Shown here: positions 2,058 to 25,492 of the stretch, in pieces
How the letters are laid out: the number at the start of each line of letters is the position of its first letter
Numbering within the stretch: position 1 is the stretch's first letter
Origin: a virus
Strand: one strand, 5' to 3'
DNA: 29,127 nucleotides
Virus record (IMG/VR): IMGVR_UViG_3300005288_000030
Coordinates: 1 to 29,127 of that record
Notes under the pieces: model-generated
Told to the model about the DNA's origin: nothing
Databases searched by the model: none
Seen by the model: the letters and a program-made list of their open reading frames with translations, nothing else
Position numbers and translations under genes: made by a program

Positions 2058-2178
2058 TTGCTACACTTGCTACACTACTACACCCCTACGGGGTGTTTGT
2101 AGTAGATGTAGCAGAAGACTTAGCACCTTCCGCTACATCTACAAATAGCTAAAAGTAGCGTATGTAGCATTTGTAGCA
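2058..2178. repeat. Inverted array of 9-bp repeats, possible origin
   Basis: The left arm has TTGCTACAC at 2058-2066 and 2067-2075, then TACTACAC at 2076-2083. The right arm has the reverse orientation: AGTAGC at 2154, TGTAGC at 2163 and TGTAGC at 2172, exactly 9 bp apart. Between them are a 7-bp hairpin (ACACCCC-TAC-GGGGTGT, 2080-2096) and an 11-bp dyad (GTAGATGTAGC 2102-2112 with GCTACATCTAC 2132-2142). The array lies just after the primase-helicase stop codon. Iteron-type arrays beside a replication initiator gene often mark an origin; regulatory operators are the alternative. The hairpin lacks a U-tract on the minus strand, so it is not a good terminator for the upstream gene. Confidence 0.65.
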
Positions 2179-2211: not shown

Positions 2212-4179
2212 TCATTCTTCAGGCAGCGCCAGCTTGCCGGGTGCGATTTCGATCAGATGTTCCGCCTTAATAAGAGAAGAAATCGCCCTGGCCGCTACCC
2301 CTTTTCGTTGGTCGCGTTCACCTTCTTTGATCACCATTTCGGGCACCATCAGCGCGATCAATTCTTCGGTGCTGATCTCTCCGCTATCGGCTGCCAAGCC
2401 AATCAGATCGTGTGCCTTATTGAAGGCCAGCTTTTGCACAGCGCCTTTAGGGCCTTTGCCGGCCTTCATACGGGCTGAGACATCGCCGTACTCGACAATA
2501 CAGCTCGTGATGTCGTCGCCGTCCTCATCTTCCCCTAGCACGACCGTGTGCAGCTTGAAGCCGATCTGGATACCGTCGCGACCGTCCTTTAGCTTGGAGG
2601 CGGACACGGCGCGGTCATCGTCGCTACGGGACACCTCGAGCTCAACATCGCAAGCGCCTTTAAGGCCGGACCAGCCGCGCGATCCTTTACTGGCGTCCTT
2701 GCCACTGTGGTGGACGAGCAGCACCATAGCGCCGGTGTGGCGATGGATACGACGGCATTCAGCCAAAGCCTTGCCCACGTCTTCACCGCTGTTCTCGTTG
2801 GCGCCTGCCATCACCTGGGCGAACGTATCCATCACGATCAGATCGTAATGGCCGCGCGCCTTGATTTCCTTTATCAGATCGGTGATCAGGGCCGCTTCCA
2901 TCAGGTTCGGGACTAGATCGCTGATGTAGTCGATCTCGAAGTCGTCCGGCGAAATGCCCTGCTGATGGCAGTAGGCGTGAATGCGGTTGACGAAACCAGC
3001 TTCGCCTTCCGCCACCACGTACATCACTCGGCCTTTCTTTACCTTTTTGCCATTCCACTCGTCCAGGCCACGGGCGATGGCCGCGCACAGGTCGTAGGTA
3101 AGGAACGACTTGCCCGAACCGGATTCGCCGAACAGCACGCCGAGCGTAGCCTTAGGAAGGAAGTTCTTCACCAGCCACGAGATTGGCTTAACCTGGCGAG
3201 CGAACTCGCCTTGCGATCGGATATTGAACTTTCCGCCTTTAGGCATCGGCAGTGCTTCAAACTCATCAGGCGAAGCCGTTTCTAAGCCTGTCTCGCCGCC
3301 AGCTTCCCGGATCATCAACAGGATGGAACCCATGGTCGTGTATTCAGCCGAGCTGTTGCGCCCGAAGGATACCCAACGCTCCATGCTGTACTCAGTCGAT
3401 GTGTACTTCGGCGACTGTGAGGACCATTCGTCCCATATGTCAAAGCCCTCGCCTTCCGTCTCGTGGTGGACCGCCATGCCGACGTTTCGCCAATCGTCGT
3501 AGCTCAGATCGTCCGGCAGCTTCTTTAGCAGGTCGGTGATCTGCTCCGGCGACATGCCGAAGGTCGGCTTGCCAGCGCCTACGCATTCAGCGCGAACCTT
3601 GGACAGCCGAGTAAACCTGGTATTACAGAAAGCTTTCACTTCAGGCGTCAGCGGCGCGACGGTGTTCTCGTCGCCGGTTAGTTGGGTCGTCTCGGTCACG
3701 TTTCCGGTGAAGGTCACGAAGCCTTTGCCGTGGAACGTTTCGAAGCCGAACGAGTTGTCGGCCGGCGAACTGTCTTTGCTGTCCGGCGACTCGCCGAGCA
3801 TGAAGGCGCGCACACCAGTTCCCGACGGGCTGAGCTCAGCGTAGGTGCCTATCGTCAGGCGTTCAACGCGTGGATCGATCTCGCCGTCCTTTACGCAGTT
3901 GTCGAAGTCCAGCGCGGTTACGCCGAACTCCGGCATCAGCGCCAGGCCTACACCGGCGAAGTCGTGCTGATCCGCCGCACGCTTAGCCTCCTCGAAAGTA
4001 ACCAGAAGCGCGCGGTCTTCGGCGGATCCGTGGGTGTGCTTGCGAACAGGGCCAGAAACGTAATAAGGCATCTTCAGAGCTTTTGGCCGACCCGGGCGCC
4101 GTACCCAACGCCATACGAGCCACCCTTTCAACTCCCGCAGCGCGTCCGGCGCCTGCAGGCCTGCAAATTTTGTAGCCAT
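2212..4179 (-). CDS. Primase-helicase (AEP-like, PriCT-2, RepA-type AAA)
   Basis: A 655-residue replication protein. The N-terminal 170 residues resemble archaeo-eukaryotic primase-polymerase domains: ALDFD (D91, D93) is the metal-binding acid motif, and LSPSGTGVRAF and FHGKGFVTFTG follow, although the histidine of the classical SxH motif is not evident. Residues about 210-290 fit a PriCT-2 linker. The C-terminal half is an AAA_25/RepA-type hexameric helicase with Walker A GESGSGKS (351-358), Walker B LIVMD (447-451) and LLVHHSGKD. The start chosen is ATG 4179 (GGAG 8 nt upstream) rather than an in-frame GTG 15 bp earlier. It follows the Cro-like gene directly. Likely role: replisome priming and unwinding. 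Confidence 0.88.
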   Translation of the reverse strand: MATKFAGLQAPDALRELKGWLVWRWVRRPGRPKALKMPYYVSGPVRKHTHGSAEDRALLVTFEEAKRAADQHDFAGVGLALMPEFGVTALDFDNCVKDGEIDPRVERLTIGTYAELSPSGTGVRAFMLGESPDSKDSSPADNSFGFETFHGKGFVTFTGNVTETTQLTGDENTVAPLTPEVKAFCNTRFTRLSKVRAECVGAGKPTFGMSPEQITDLLKKLPDDLSYDDWRNVGMAVHHETEGEGFDIWDEWSSQSPKYTSTEYSMERWVSFGRNSSAEYTTMGSILLMIREAGGETGLETASPDEFEALPMPKGGKFNIRSQGEFARQVKPISWLVKNFLPKATLGVLFGESGSGKSFLTYDLCAAIARGLDEWNGKKVKKGRVMYVVAEGEAGFVNRIHAYCHQQGISPDDFEIDYISDLVPNLMEAALITDLIKEIKARGHYDLIVMDTFAQVMAGANENSGEDVGKALAECRRIHRHTGAMVLLVHHSGKDASKGSRGWSGLKGACDVELEVSRSDDDRAVSASKLKDGRDGIQIGFKLHTVVLGEDEDGDDITSCIVEYGDVSARMKAGKGPKGAVQKLAFNKAHDLIGLAADSGEISTEELIALMVPEMVIKEGERDQRKGVAARAISSLIKAEHLIEIAPGKLALPEE

Positions 4180-4197
4180 CTTCGCGGCTCCCACGGC

Positions 4198-4512
4198 TTA
4201 TACGTCAGACGAGAAGGTAGGTTCAGCGAGCGCCGCCGCGTATTTCGGGTTCATCAATTCTTTGCGCGGAACGCCGTAGGTGCTTTCGATCTCAGGGATA
4301 CGGCCCAGGGGCACGTAGCCTAGCTTTAGCCAGTGCTGGACAGCCTGGTAGGTAACGCCTAGCTTTTCCGCTACGTCGTCTAGGCTGCCGGCGCGCACGA
4401 CCGTATCAAGGATGCCGCTGTAGGACTTGGCGCTGACCAGTGCGTTCATCACGGCCAGGGTGGCGCGGTGCTCCAGTGCGTACTTGTTCAGTGCGTCGAG
4501 TTTCTTGTCCAT
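4198..4512 (-). CDS. Cro/YdaS-type HTH regulator
   Basis: 104 residues. Positions about 42-90 form a helix-turn-helix: SLDDVAEKLGVTYQAVQHWL, then GYVPLGRIPEIESTYG and VPRKEL. This matches the YdaS/Cro pattern, in which the recognition helix is followed by a 'VP..R..EIE' segment. The start at ATG 4512 is preferred over an upstream extension because AGAAGAGAG sits just before it. It is divergent from the early rightward genes with a 131 bp gap holding a promoter and an inverted repeat, so it probably represses the early rightward promoter and/or its own. No CI-like partner is present in the window. Confidence 0.8.
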   Translation of the reverse strand: MDKKLDALNKYALEHRATLAVMNALVSAKSYSGILDTVVRAGSLDDVAEKLGVTYQAVQHWLKLGYVPLGRIPEIESTYGVPRKELMNPKYAAALAEPTFSSDV

Positions 4513-4643
4513 CGGTTGCTCTCTTCTGTTTAGGTAGTCGATGGAGCGCATCCTACGGTATTTAACAGGAAAAGCAAATAGCACTAGACAAAGCAAGAAA
4601 ACACAATTAGATTTGCTTCACACCAACCAGTCGGAGATCCACC
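4513..4643. promoter_or_regulatory. Divergent control region with operator-like dyad
   Basis: Gap between the leftward regulator gene and the rightward early genes; AT-rich compared with its surroundings. An 8-bp perfect inverted repeat, AAGCAAAT at 4572-4579 and ATTTGCTT at 4611-4618, flanks the rightward promoter, with a related AAAGCAAG inside at 4590-4597. These are candidate operators for the adjacent Cro-like protein. A leftward promoter must lie here, but no convincing -35/-10 pair was found for it. Confidence 0.6.
4585..4613 (+). promoter_or_regulatory. Early rightward promoter (sigma70-like)
   Basis: TAGACA (4585-4590, five of six to the -35 consensus), a 17 bp spacer and TAGATT (4608-4613), 31 bp before the first early ATG. 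The element aligns without gaps to the promoter at 11991-12019 (shared GACAA, CAAG and ATTTGCTT blocks). Confidence 0.6.
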
Positions 4644-13827: not shown

Positions 13828-14017
13828 CCGACTTGTATGGACACGAGGGATGTCAACATCGAGTATCCGGCGCCAGCTTTTCGACAACCCAGTGCTGCGC
13901 CTAGAAAGCACCAGTCTGTTGATCGTCCGTAGTGAACTGCGCGCCATGGAAGCCGAAGGTTTGGTAACCGCGGATCGCCGGGCGCGGAATGTAACCGTTT
14001 GGACAGCAGTCGAATGA
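13775..14017 (+). CDS. Winged-helix-like protein, 80 aa
   Basis: AGGAG before the ATG. An N-terminal basic helix (MSNKIREEILKTLRDSLNRL) is followed by STSSIRRQLF and a helix-strand end, ELRAMEAEGLVTADRRARNV then TVWTAVE. The end looks like the recognition helix and wing of a winged-helix domain. It immediately precedes the DNA polymerase genes (ATGA overlap). Possibly a regulator or replication accessory protein. Confidence 0.65.
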   Translation: MSNKIREEILKTLRDSLNRLVWTRGMSTSSIRRQLFDNPVLRLESTSLLIVRSELRAMEAEGLVTADRRARNVTVWTAVE

Positions 14018-15117
14018 ACCTCGACAAATGCATTTTCCTCGACACGGAAACCTTCTGCGAAACGCCGATCAACAACGGCACGCACCGTTACGCAGAAGGC
14101 GCCGAGATCATCATGTGGCAGTGGGCGGTCGGCGATGGGCCTGTCGAGATTCGCGACGGGGATGAAGATATCAGCGACTTGCTCGCTTTGCTTGAGGATG
14201 AAAGTTATGAAGTGGTTATCCACAATTCGGCGTTTGATCGGAATGTCATCAGACACGCCACCGGAATCGTTATCCCCGTCGAGCGAGTCTTCGACACCAT
14301 GGTCTGCGCTATGGCACACAGCTTGCCAGGAGCCCTCGGGACGCTATGTGCCATTCTTGGCGTCGCCACCGACAAAGCGAAGGATAAAGAAGGTAAGGCA
14401 TGGATCAGTCTTTTTTGCAAGCCTCAACCCAAGGGGCGGAAGATTCGTCGTGCGACGCGGGATACCCACCCAGTGGAATGGCAACGCTTCCGAGGCTACG
14501 GGGGTCTTGACATTGAGTCTATGAGGGAGATCTACAAAAAGCTGCCACGATGGAATTACCGTGGCGCCGAAAAAGAGCTTTGGCACCTAGACCAGAAGAT
14601 CAACGAACGCGGTGTGCTTATGGACCTCGACTTGGCGCACGCTGCTATTCGCGCTTCGGATCGTGCTCAGAAGCTGTTAGGCGCTCGAACGCAGAAGCTG
14701 ACCGGCTACGTCGACGAGGAGGGCGAACTGACCGGCCAGGGTGTCGCCAGCGCCAACCAGCGCGACAAGATGCTGGAGCACATCCTGGAGGCTTACGGGG
14801 TGGGCCTACCTGACCTTCAGATCAGTACGCTGGAACGCCGCATCGACGATCCGGATTTACCGATTGAGTTGCGCGAACTACTGGCCGTCCGGTTGCAGGC
14901 GTCAAAAACCAGCGTGTCGAAGTACAAACGCGTTCTGAACGGTGTTAGTGCAGACGGCAGGCTGCGGGGGCTTCTTGCGTTCTGTGGTGCGTTGCGCACG
15001 GGCCGGTGGGCTGGTCGCCTAATCCAACCACAAAATTTATCGAGGGGTACGCTGACGCCGGAAGGCGTAGAGCATGCCATCGAAGAGCTTCTTGCCGACG
15101 CGGAGGACTTGCTTTGA
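14014..15117 (+). CDS. DNA polymerase A, N-terminal part (3'-5' exonuclease and thumb)
   Basis: 367 residues. The exonuclease motifs are IFLDTETF (D10, E12), VIHNSAFD (N71, D75) and YGGLD (Y162, D166). The polymerase region begins afterwards and includes KTSVSKYKRVL and the family A motif RTGRWAGRLIQPQNLSRG (R328-G345). It then stops at EELLADAEDLL, just before motif A. The missing polymerase motifs are in the gene at 15650. A 179-residue HNH-AP2 gene sits between. The TGA overlaps the HNH TTG start by 4 bp. Proofreading and template grip would lie in this chain; catalysis needs its partner. Confidence 0.9.
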   Translation: MNLDKCIFLDTETFCETPINNGTHRYAEGAEIIMWQWAVGDGPVEIRDGDEDISDLLALLEDESYEVVIHNSAFDRNVIRHATGIVIPVERVFDTMVCAMAHSLPGALGTLCAILGVATDKAKDKEGKAWISLFCKPQPKGRKIRRATRDTHPVEWQRFRGYGGLDIESMREIYKKLPRWNYRGAEKELWHLDQKINERGVLMDLDLAHAAIRASDRAQKLLGARTQKLTGYVDEEGELTGQGVASANQRDKMLEHILEAYGVGLPDLQISTLERRIDDPDLPIELRELLAVRLQASKTSVSKYKRVLNGVSADGRLRGLLAFCGALRTGRWAGRLIQPQNLSRGTLTPEGVEHAIEELLADAEDLL

Positions 15118-15653
15118 AAGATCCTATTAGCCATGAAAAGCTGCTTGAGCTTTTCGATTACGACGCCGAGACTGGGGAACTCGTCCGGCGTTGCAACGTT
15201 CGCGGTTTGGGGCTCAACAGAAAAGGCGACCGCCCGCGGCATAAGGGACCGAACGGATATGCGGCAATCGGCGCCGACGTGAAAAAGTATCTCTATCACC
15301 GCTTAGTTTGGTTCTGGCACCACAACGAATGGCCGGAGGTGATCGACCACGTCGACGGCGATAAGCAGAACAACCGTATCGAGAATCTGCGCGCCTGCAC
15401 TCAGTCGCAAAACCTTTGCAACGCGCAGATCCCGAGCGACAACAAGTCAGGCTTTAAAGGCGTCAGCTTTCACAAACAGGCGGGTAAGTGGCGGGCGCGT
15501 TGCGGCCTTCACAAAGTTCAGCACAACCTAGGCGTATTCGATACGCGCGAAGAGGCAGCCGACGCGGTTCGAGCTTTCCGCGCGGGGCTGCACGGCGCCT
15601 ACACGAACCACGGAATCCACTTGAAGGATCTACGCCAGGAGCTAGTAGGATGA
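15114..15653 (+). CDS. HNH-AP2 homing endonuclease splitting the polymerase
   Basis: 179 residues from a TTG start. The HNH part has YHRLVW (H62), VIDHVDGDKQNN (D78, H79) and NRIENLR (N91). An AP2-type DNA-binding segment follows (SDNKSGFKGVSFHKQAGKW, LGVFDTREEAADAVRAF). Same architecture as the gene at 24947. Such free-standing endonucleases cut unoccupied alleles and spread by repair. The whole insert is coding, with 4 bp overlaps at each end and no space for a self-splicing intron. Confidence 0.9.
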   Translation: MKDPISHEKLLELFDYDAETGELVRRCNVRGLGLNRKGDRPRHKGPNGYAAIGADVKKYLYHRLVWFWHHNEWPEVIDHVDGDKQNNRIENLRACTQSQNLCNAQIPSDNKSGFKGVSFHKQAGKWRARCGLHKVQHNLGVFDTREEAADAVRAFRAGLHGAYTNHGIHLKDLRQELVG

Positions 15654-16645
15654 GCGCTACCGTAATGGAAAAATGCTCCAGCGCCGTGCGAGGAGTCTTC
15701 ATCGCGCCGAAGGGCAAAAAGTTCGTGATCGCCGACCTGGCCGGTATTGAAAACCGTGTCTTGGCCTGGCTGGCGGGCGAAGCGTGGAAGCTTGAAGCGT
15801 TCCTTGACTTCGACCTGCGCGACGGCCACGACATGTACAAACTGGCCTATGCGAAGGCTTTCGGCATTGATCCGGCGGACGTCGGTAAGCACGAGCGGAG
15901 CATAGGCAAAGTTTTGGAACTCATGCTGGGCTACGCCGGCGGTGTAGGGGCGTACATTACAGGGGCCTTGACCTATCGCATCGACCTGGAAGACATGGCG
16001 GAAAAAGCGTGGGACGCGATCCCTGACGCTACCCGGCTAGAAGCGGCGGACTTCCTAGAATGGCAGCTCGGCCAGGGTCGTACGCAACACGGCTTGACGG
16101 ATCGCGCCTTTATCGTATGCGAAAGCTTCAAGCGCCTGTGGAGGGGTTCAAACCCGGCGATTAGCAGTTGGTGGAAAGAACTTGAGGAAGTAGTCCGCCG
16201 CGCCATAAACAGCCCAGGCCAAACGCTGACCTGCCGCATGCACAAGATTCGTCGCGATGGCGCATGGCTCCGTATCATGCTGCCATCGGGCCGATATCTC
16301 TGTTATCCGTCACCTCGGGTAGAGGACGACGGAAAAATCACCTTTATGGGAGTCAACCAGTACACCCGGAAGTGGGAGCGCCTTACCACATTTGGGGGCA
16401 AAATTTGTGAAAATATTTGCCAAGCAGTGGCCCGCGATGTCCTCGCCTCTTCTATGCAGCCGATTGAATCCGCCGGTTATGAAATCGTTCTGACCGTCCA
16501 CGACGAGATTATCAGCGAAGCGCCGGACACTGACGACTACACGCACGAACACCTGGCCGAACTGATGTCTGCCGGTTGCGACTGGACAGAAGGCTTACCG
16601 CTCGCCGCCGCCGGCTTCGAAGCGTATCGCTATCGGAAAGGTTGA
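15650..16645 (+). CDS. DNA polymerase A, C-terminal catalytic part
   Basis: 331 residues. Begins MSATVMEKCSSAVRGVFIAP, then motif A VIADLAGIENRVLAWLAGE (D29), motif B RSIGKVLELMLGYAGGVGAY (R83, K87) and motif C LTVHDEII (H284, D285, E286). These are the catalytic centre of family A polymerases. The ATG overlaps the HNH stop by 4 bp, and AGGAG lies 8 nt before, so it is translated as a separate chain that must pair with the N-terminal product. In unsplit relatives the sequence from 14014 to here is a single protein of about 700 residues. Confidence 0.9.
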   Translation: MSATVMEKCSSAVRGVFIAPKGKKFVIADLAGIENRVLAWLAGEAWKLEAFLDFDLRDGHDMYKLAYAKAFGIDPADVGKHERSIGKVLELMLGYAGGVGAYITGALTYRIDLEDMAEKAWDAIPDATRLEAADFLEWQLGQGRTQHGLTDRAFIVCESFKRLWRGSNPAISSWWKELEEVVRRAINSPGQTLTCRMHKIRRDGAWLRIMLPSGRYLCYPSPRVEDDGKITFMGVNQYTRKWERLTTFGGKICENICQAVARDVLASSMQPIESAGYEIVLTVHDEIISEAPDTDDYTHEHLAELMSAGCDWTEGLPLAAAGFEAYRYRKG

Positions 16646-24567: not shown

Positions 24568-24959
24568 GGGCGGTCTCGGTGAAAGGTCACGGTAGAGTGG
24601 TCTCGCAGCCACTTATGCAGCGGCAGGCAGCGCGGACCGCGCGCCGGGTTTATCTCCAGTATGCGCAAGCCGTCCGGCGAATCGATCACCAGAGCGACGT
24701 GAGTACAGATGCGCCCGATCATTACCGCAGCGATGGCGCCATGCTCAGGCTCGCAACGCTCCATGCACGACGACTCTTCCTCGTAAGCACGGGTGAACTC
24801 GCGAGGATCGGTGTTGCGCAGGCTGCCGTACTCGGCCAGTAGACGCTTACCTAGTTCAGCATGGCGGACGAGACGGACTAGGCCCCAGCAATCGAACTTG
24901 TCAGGGCCGCGAGCGCCGTCCTCATACGTGCAGGAAAGATACTTATTCACCCAGAGCAT
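24564..24959 (-). CDS. Tail assembly NlpC/P60 peptidase
   Basis: 131 residues. MLWVNKYLSCTYEDGARGPD is followed by KFDCWGLVRLV (catalytic C24), then THVALVID (H87) and LEINPARGPR. These are the hallmarks of phage tail-tip NlpC/P60 proteins, which cut peptidoglycan crosslinks and complete tip assembly before the J-like protein. The N-terminus is complete even though an HNH gene overlaps it by 13 bp. The ribosome site for ATG 24959 is weak. Confidence 0.85.
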   Translation of the reverse strand: MLWVNKYLSCTYEDGARGPDKFDCWGLVRLVRHAELGKRLLAEYGSLRNTDPREFTRAYEEESSCMERCEPEHGAIAAVMIGRICTHVALVIDSPDGLRILEINPARGPRCLPLHKWLRDHSTVTFHRDRP

Positions 24960-25492
24960 ACGGAGTTCTCACGATTATACGGCGCGGGGATTTTGCCGTG
25001 ATCGGGATCGAATTTACCTTTCCTAAACTCTTCGACCTTTCTCTCAGCTTCGTCAAATTCCTGGAAGCGCCCGAGATATACTCCGGCGGCGTAGACTTGC
25101 CACTTTGCCTTTCTACTGTTCCAGCATACACCCGTTACTCCGGATTTATTATTCCGATTCTTGCTTCTATTCCTCTGATTCTCTCCGTTTGAATCCCGTA
25201 GGTTCAACCACCGATTATCAGTGGCATCTCTGTTTTCGTGGTCAATTTCTTCTGGGGGCAGCGCGCCCGTCATGTATGCCCACGCCAAACGATGCGCTGC
25301 GTGGGAGACACCCGCTAGGCGTATTAGGACGTCCTTGTACCCTCCGGGAGCGGTTCGTATACAGCCCGCTTCTTTCCCCGCGTAATTAGTATTCCACTGT
25401 TTTGGGAAGGTCGGCTGCGGCAGCCAAGTGAAAATGCCCGACGCGGGGTCGTAGCTAAGACGCGATTTCAAATATTCTTGGGAAATTTTCAT
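24947..25492 (-). CDS. HNH-AP2 homing endonuclease, second copy
   Basis: 181 residues. HNH part: AAHRLAWAYMTG (H67) and EEIDHENRDATDNRWLNLR (D84, H85, N93); AP2-type segment: NNKSGVTGVCWNSRKAKWQV and YLGRFQEFDEAERKVEEF. Same architecture as the polymerase-splitting gene but diverged in sequence. GAGGTGATGGT precedes the ATG. It sits between the DUF1833 and NlpC genes without visibly breaking either, consistent with a free-standing mobile endonuclease in the late operon. Confidence 0.9.
   Translation of the reverse strand: MKISQEYLKSRLSYDPASGIFTWLPQPTFPKQWNTNYAGKEAGCIRTAPGGYKDVLIRLAGVSHAAHRLAWAYMTGALPPEEIDHENRDATDNRWLNLRDSNGENQRNRSKNRNNKSGVTGVCWNSRKAKWQVYAAGVYLGRFQEFDEAERKVEEFRKGKFDPDHGKIPAPYNRENSVCSG

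Follow-up and report, generated by a model that had tools for sequence, protein, structure and literature searches.

A short array of inverted iterons at positions 2058–2178 of a 29,127-nt stretch of viral DNA from an IMG/VR virus record (the window, by which we mean the whole of the stretch that was analyzed) very probably serves as a phage replication origin, bound through the C-terminal winged helix of the primase-helicase whose gene lies beside it. A sequence-only reading of the window had put the array forward either as an origin next to the primase-helicase or as a cooperative operator. The comparisons described here lend strong support to the origin because the majority of relatives also have an array 3' of this gene and because differences in the repeated word go together with differences in the C-terminal domain of the primase-helicase and with those of no other neighbor that was tested; the proposed tie to the adjacent protein is borne out in the same way.

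The iteron array and the adjacent primase-helicase

There are 11 TGTAGC-type sites at no more than one mismatch in these 121 bases, including six exact TGTAGC cores, where the chance level for any 121 bases, from 200 dinucleotide shuffles of the whole window, is 8 sites at most and 5.3 on average. Read on the plus strand, three minus units, a hairpin and two plus units are followed by a second set of two to three minus units and three plus units. The features referred to below are as follows (strand given where one applies).

2000–2048: two CGCAANAATTGCG elements, 2000–2012 and 2036–2048, independent of the iteron word
2058–2178: inverted iteron array, marked by its site count and kept 3' of the same gene in relatives
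2060–2082, minus: left run, three iterons with cores at 2060, 2069 and 2077 and steps of 9 and 8
2080–2096: hairpin ACACCCC-TAC-GGGGTGT between inverted iterons; relatives have other stems
2098–2112, plus: two iterons in the opposite orientation, 2098 and 2107, step of 9
2102–2142: second dyad, with arms of 16 bp (94% complementary, perfect over 11 bp) around a 9-nt spacer
2132–2153, minus: iteron at 2132 and imperfect ones at 2138 and 2148
2154–2177, plus: right run of three iterons, 2154, 2163 and 2172, steps of 9 and 9
2178–2207: two CGCAANAATTGCG-like elements, 2178–2190 and 2195–2207
2212–4194, minus: primase-helicase gene (AEP/NrS-1-like primase, PriCT_2, AAA_25 helicase of RSF1010 RepA type, C-terminal winged helix)
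2227–2442, minus: predicted C-terminal winged helix, residues 585–656, proposed iteron reader
2266–2316, minus: RDQR motif (residues 627–630) and recognition helix a3 (630–643)
2296–2298, minus: code residue y, V633
2308–2310, minus: code residue x, Q629
4198–4515, minus: YdaS-type HTH protein, upstream, rejected as reader of the array

All six units of the sequence-only reading, three each way, are present, as are its 11-bp dyad (perfect arms 2102–2112 and 2132–2142) and its 7-bp hairpin (arms 2080–2086 and 2090–2096), and we agree that no plausible gene accounts for 2058–2178. As a description of the array, however, six units are too few: the plus pair at 2098 and 2107 and the minus units at 2132, 2138 and 2148 were overlooked, about half of the array, and the steps of exactly 9 bp that were given hold for the right run (9, 9) and the plus pair (9) but not for the left run (9, 8). 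Also absent from that reading are four CGCAANAATTGCG elements (0–2 mismatches), two per side, that enclose the array; no copy with one mismatch or fewer occurs elsewhere in the window. Flanking elements of this kind are seen in relatives with other iteron words as well, and their presence beside arrays that differ in word suggests that a second, word-independent factor may bind the origin at the CGCAANAATTGCG-type flanks. Within the window A+T content peaks in the ∼180 bases that surround the array (rank 1 of 2895 segments, GC 0.43 vs 0.56). The 40-mers of lowest GC (2133–2176) fall inside the second iteron set (2132–2177), and the 19-base gap (2113–2131) that separates this set from the one at 2060–2112 is not A+T-rich.

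The array begins 34 bases past the stop codon of the primase-helicase gene, in the interval that separates it from the following gene on the minus strand. A profile built from 55 relatives gave matches to the NrS-1 primase-polymerase (E = 2e-17), to 7ola, also a DNA primase (E = 2e-30), and to 1g8y, the RepA helicase of RSF1010 (E = 1.9e-10), and the predicted structure agrees with the matches to NrS-1 PrimPol and RSF1010 RepA. The last ∼75 residues are predicted to form helix a1 (585–600), strand b1 (606–608), helices a2 (609–619) and a3 (630–643) and a two-stranded wing, with RDQR (627–630) at the start of a3, the recognition helix of the predicted fold. A fold search with this domain returned many winged helices (the C-terminus of archaeal MCM with Z 9.6, ORC, BlaI/MecI); it gave no family assignment, and P4 was not among the matches listed.

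Several observations concern the remainder of the window. The family A DNA polymerase is split into an exonuclease part (13999–15117) and a polymerase part (15488–16645), with an HNH_3/AP2 endonuclease ORF (15006–15653) between the two; no Rfam intron model matched at the split gene (13999–16645). A second HNH_3 endonuclease ORF (24947–25492) adjoins the tail genes, and repeated GCGAGAATCGTTCTCATTT and GCGCGAATCATTCTCATTTC stretches occupy 780–905, a gap between genes. The coding strand switches at ∼4550 and ∼19900, and GC and AT skew switch there too.

Arrays in relatives and the protein part that follows the word

Related loci were collected from two viral scans and one genome scan, with a further test set drawn from two additional viral scans, giving ∼98 usable relatives with arrays; array detection was heuristic and the words were aligned on the assumption that they share a frame. 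In most relatives an array of the same plan, with a strongly repeated word, lies 3' of the primase-helicase gene, generally in the first ∼100 bases after it and in some cases 0.2–1.7 kb away. The word itself varies widely: TGTAGC is that of the window group, and TGGAGC, TGGATC, TGAAGG, TGTTGC, TGGTGC, TGCAAC, CGAGTA, TGTACC and others are found elsewhere, with at least 34 changes of the word core among 98 loci on a tree of the protein body (the protein minus its last 110 residues). The strict 9-bp periodicity, whose loss in close relatives had been named as evidence against the original reading, is indeed lost, steps of 7–11 bp being common, but the array, the strand order of its units (largely constant) and the hairpin are kept despite the variable spacing. 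Automatic unit detection, working with short cores, gives noisy strand strings and broad steps (6–14 bp, mode 8). A stem of at least 4 bp lies between opposed units in 59 of 87 arrays, as against 16% of shuffled inner sequences; the stems vary by group, CCCTTTAGGG, CTATAG and the like being the commonest.

In about a dozen relatives, most of which have I, V or F at the residue termed x below and some of which have T, no convincing array was seen in the 2.3 kb downstream of the gene; loci in which none was detected over this distance are L157, L158, L160–L163, L169, L334, L342 and L084. By DNA similarity to known phages the 1–6 kb stretch of the window gives weak matches only. The window is probably part of a ∼47-kb phage, as several close relatives measure 46–48 kb. 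Cumulative GC skew had been suggested as a check on the origin, and in four longer relatives the minima (at 11.0, 11.5, 45 and 24.5 kb) do fall some 4 to 24 kb from the arrays (near 16, 15.5, 21 and 12.8 kb, respectively); yet the skew correlates with coding strand in these genomes (0.29–0.37), and since it tracks coding strand it speaks neither for nor against an origin.

Which part of the protein goes with the word can be asked by correlation. Word similarity correlates with the identity of residues 601–660 at r = 0.64 (75 loci), the highest value for any part of the protein, and the correlation stays at 0.53–0.61 (p = 0.0005) when corrected for identity of the N-terminal part, PriCT, helicase or linker (0.55, p = 0.0005, for the partial correlation given the helicase). 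Conversely, the body shows no signal once the C-terminus is corrected for (−0.01 to −0.08). Within the window clade (28 loci) identity over the last 60 residues is 0.78 for pairs that share a word and 0.37 for pairs that do not; for the helicase the values are 0.87 and 0.62, an association that is expected if helicase, C-terminus and array travel together and that limits the fine mapping. The window and relative L097 illustrate such travel: their leader and next gene are 98% identical, whereas the arrays (identity 0.59, with 0.56 expected by chance) and the sequences coding for the C-terminus (0.59) are not, a contrast that points to exchange of helicase, C-terminal domain and array as a cassette. 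In L006 and L090 the N-terminal part of the primase has diverged from that of the window and the helicase, C-terminal domain and array are nearly identical; judging from these two loci, the primase and helicase parts probably recombine separately as well.

The same arrangement occurs in cultured phages. Roseobacter phages CRP-811, CRP-821, CRP-823 and CRP-831 all have it, with a AAACCCTTTAGGGTTT hairpin. CRP-821 and CRP-823, isolated on the same host strain, Roseobacter FZCC0197, are the closest pair by protein body (96% identical), their last 80 residues are 72% identical and their words are GTATAAA and TGTAGT, respectively. CRP-823 has a C-terminus 97% identical to that of CRP-811 and shares its word, TGTAGT, while CRP-821 has a C-terminus 99% identical to that of CRP-831 and shares GTATAAA; CRP-821 and CRP-823 are a natural swap. 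Word arrays also lie 3' of related genes in Salicola phage CGphi29, Idiomarinaceae phage 1N2-2, Rhizobium phage RHph_N65 and EBPR siphovirus 5, and no array was found 3' of the gene in Mycobacterium phage Minerva, a Vibrio phage and Caulobacter phage RW.

A search of viral contigs with the pattern TGCTACACTTGCTACAC produced 46 matches, mostly outside this protein family. TGTAGCA-type arrays follow DUF3987 helicase genes in L045 (9770–10091), L047 (2624–2682) and L048 (242–500), where the helicases end in a winged-helix-like domain, and the array of L043 follows an AAA_25 helicase gene. The DUF3987 family seems to be a separate one that uses this origin plan too, with almost the same word, and these four loci were counted as parallel cases, not as family members.

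Recognition-helix residues and iteron bases

Comparison of the recognition helices with the words suggests a protein-DNA recognition code that may be partly readable from sequences. For this comparison the 3' arm set the orientation of each word and base 4 was left out of the alignment to TGTnGCA; the code applies to proteins of the RDxR group; the YKNQAF, NTKTN, QDMR and GDCR types need other rules. Within the RDxR group base 4 is T when x is T or S, A when x is Q or N, G when x is K or R, and T when x is A. Arg or Lys with G, Gln or Asn with A and small side chains with T are familiar pairings. The rule, set down before the second set of loci was read, fits 82 of 84 cases, 46/48 in the first set and 36/36 in the second, the latter testing constancy more than the code because 35 of its 36 loci have T or S. 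One of the two misses, L156, is an error of orientation (GGTGCA and TGCACC being reverse complements) and the other, L121, is without a convincing array. L156 was re-oriented by hand, and the words of L094, L112, L154 and L156 were set by hand for the test on the tree, in which x offers only four independent pairs on the body tree, three of them concordant.

A further rule, noticed after both sets had been read and thus post hoc, involves residue y, three positions past the last R of RDxR. When y is H, base 3 is G (TGGTGC) in 18 of 19 cases; with any other residue at y the RDTR/RDSR group almost always has T at base 3, L166 and L262 being exceptions, and L166 (RDARKQRA) breaks the rule. On the body tree eight of nine independent pairs are concordant for y and none is opposite (p = 0.008).

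It is possible, and we propose it tentatively, that single residues at the start of the recognition helix specify single bases of the iteron and that words keep changing because sharing a word is punished, whether by related phages, by satellites or by nucleases directed at origins, within a common host, with CRP-821 and CRP-823 as an example.

Rival readings, mechanism and known systems

We consider it unlikely that the array is instead a cooperative operator, by which the primase-helicase or another phage regulator would control the downstream early minus-strand genes (CxxC, HNH, TerS). Its location between co-directional genes would suit such a function, the flanking CGCAANAATTGCG elements could be regulator sites and replication initiators often autoregulate. 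Scans of the intergenic region, however, found neither a sigma-70-like promoter nor a terminator, the word tracks the domain of a replicative helicase and not the YdaS HTH, and in some relatives the array is as far as 1.7 kb away. An extra role as operator, beside that of origin, is possible. The YdaS-type HTH protein, whose gene lies upstream in this operon, is itself a DNA-binding protein adjoining the primase-helicase gene, but that it should read the array is very improbable, the idea being largely refuted by comparisons in the window clade, where its identity is 0.68 for same-word and 0.64 for different-word pairs (p = 0.06), and by other groups, which have an unrelated small ORF or none at its position. 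Its helix GVTYQAVQ[QH]W hardly differs between loci with four different words. TerS, with an identity of 0.63 for both types of pair (p = 0.41) in the window clade, was rejected as a reader as well, as were HNH, CxxC and another small protein, for which same- and different-word pairs differ by 0 to 0.04, and identical TerS, HNH and YdaS proteins are found beside different words.

The terminase small subunit gene lies 1.4 kb away and iteron arrays occur also at centromeres, so a site for packaging (pac/cos), partition or recombination deserves mention; we give it very little credence in view of the TerS identities, which are the same whether or not the word is shared, and of the proteins searched in the window, among which there is no ParA/ParB or integrase. 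Least expected of all is that the primase-helicase mRNA ends here in a terminator or a structured RNA. A hairpin and dyads directly 3' of the gene might be taken for either, but no T-run follows the hairpin, the terminator scan was empty, an Rfam scan of the array region returned weak microRNA models only, below threshold, and the order and word of the iterons co-vary with a DNA-binding domain.

The origin reading would work as follows. The C-terminal winged helix, its recognition helix beginning at RDQR, would bind the 6–7-bp iterons, as the co-variation suggests, and on the two opposed sets of ∼5 sites each, two helicase assemblies would be placed facing opposite ways. Aided by the hairpin and by the A+T-richness of the region, binding would open the DNA near the hairpin, whereupon the RepA-type ring would load and the fused primase would make the first primers, starting two forks and hence replication both ways. 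Like binding, origin activity, the loading of two rings and the role of the hairpin are inferred. The C-terminal domain and the array would form a matched lock and key, changing together partly through cassette recombination and partly through point changes of recognition-helix residues and bases in step.

No description of these origins was found in the literature searched. At the IncQ origin of RSF1010 iterons of ∼20 bp are read by a separate RepC, the primase being separate too, and the words of the window, 6–7 bp at 8–9-bp steps, are unlike those iterons. The likeness to RSF1010 lies in the homologous hexameric helicase of the RepA family (PDB 1g8y), and that to the phage NrS-1 PrimPol (PDB 6jon, 6a9w, 7rr4) in the fold of the N-terminal primase. 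A paper on roseophages (PMC12629253) makes no mention of a replication origin, repeats or intergenic arrays.

The closest parallels in layout come from satellites. The SaPI Rep protein reads iterons just 3' of its own gene by means of its C-terminal domain, according to PMC7581432, which cites Ubeda et al., and PICI origins so placed are functional (PMC6092414). In SaPI/PICI elements, as in the window with its putative origin, the origin is directly 3' of the gene for the initiator helicase, there are two sets of short iterons, an AEP primase is fused or adjacent and the iterons are read by the C-terminal domain of the helicase, for which in the window the co-variation argues. The SaPI/PICI helicase, however, is of the SF3/D5 or DUF927 type, whereas that of the window is RepA/RecA-type (SF4), AAA_25; the SaPI/PICI sets flank an A+T-rich spacer and those of the window do not; each set in the window is itself inverted, one of them around a hairpin, unlike SaPI/PICI; and SaPI/PICI are phage-dependent satellites while the window is from a phage with DNA polymerase A, SSB, TerS and tail proteins. 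P4 alpha (ori1/crr) likewise unites primase, helicase and an iteron-reading C-terminal winged helix in one protein, as generally described and as cited in PMC4234260, but with a Toprim primase and an SF3 helicase in place of AEP and RepA-type, the comparison here covering the general fold. ORF904 of pRN1 has an AEP primase, a helicase and a C-terminal winged helix, and the pRN1 origin (∼100 nt, just 3' of the gene) contains a stem-loop and is variable in sequence with conserved flanks; its helicase, in contrast to the RepA-type one of the window, is SF3, and it has no iterons where the window has hairpin and iterons (PMC4234260). In the PLE satellites of Vibrio cholerae it was established by experiment that the reader domain and the origin iterons co-vary and swap as a module, an origin-directed nuclease being the suspected driver of the swaps (PMC8263062), although PLE RepA differs from the protein of the window in its N-terminal RepA_N, ∼30-bp iterons, lack of a fused helicase and small number of known alleles (PMC8263062).

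The array of the window would thus work like SaPI/PICI, P4, pRN1 and IncQ but is a member of none of them, because in each case the type of helicase or primase fails. What sets it apart from these systems are the set of enzymes (AEP with a RepA-type helicase) and the near-palindromic [3|2][2|3] plan with hairpin, and also the word-independent flanking elements and the number of natural changes of the word.

Replication origins are known for very few environmental phages, and in the present case sequence alone is enough to call one, beside its reader, in many phages that are uncultured and in some that are cultured. Such matched changes amount to a natural mutational series of how a DNA-binding domain shifts its target without losing an essential function, and they bear as well on why the origins of close relatives diverge. 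The word also offers a simple way to predict which phages would be able to replicate one another's DNA.
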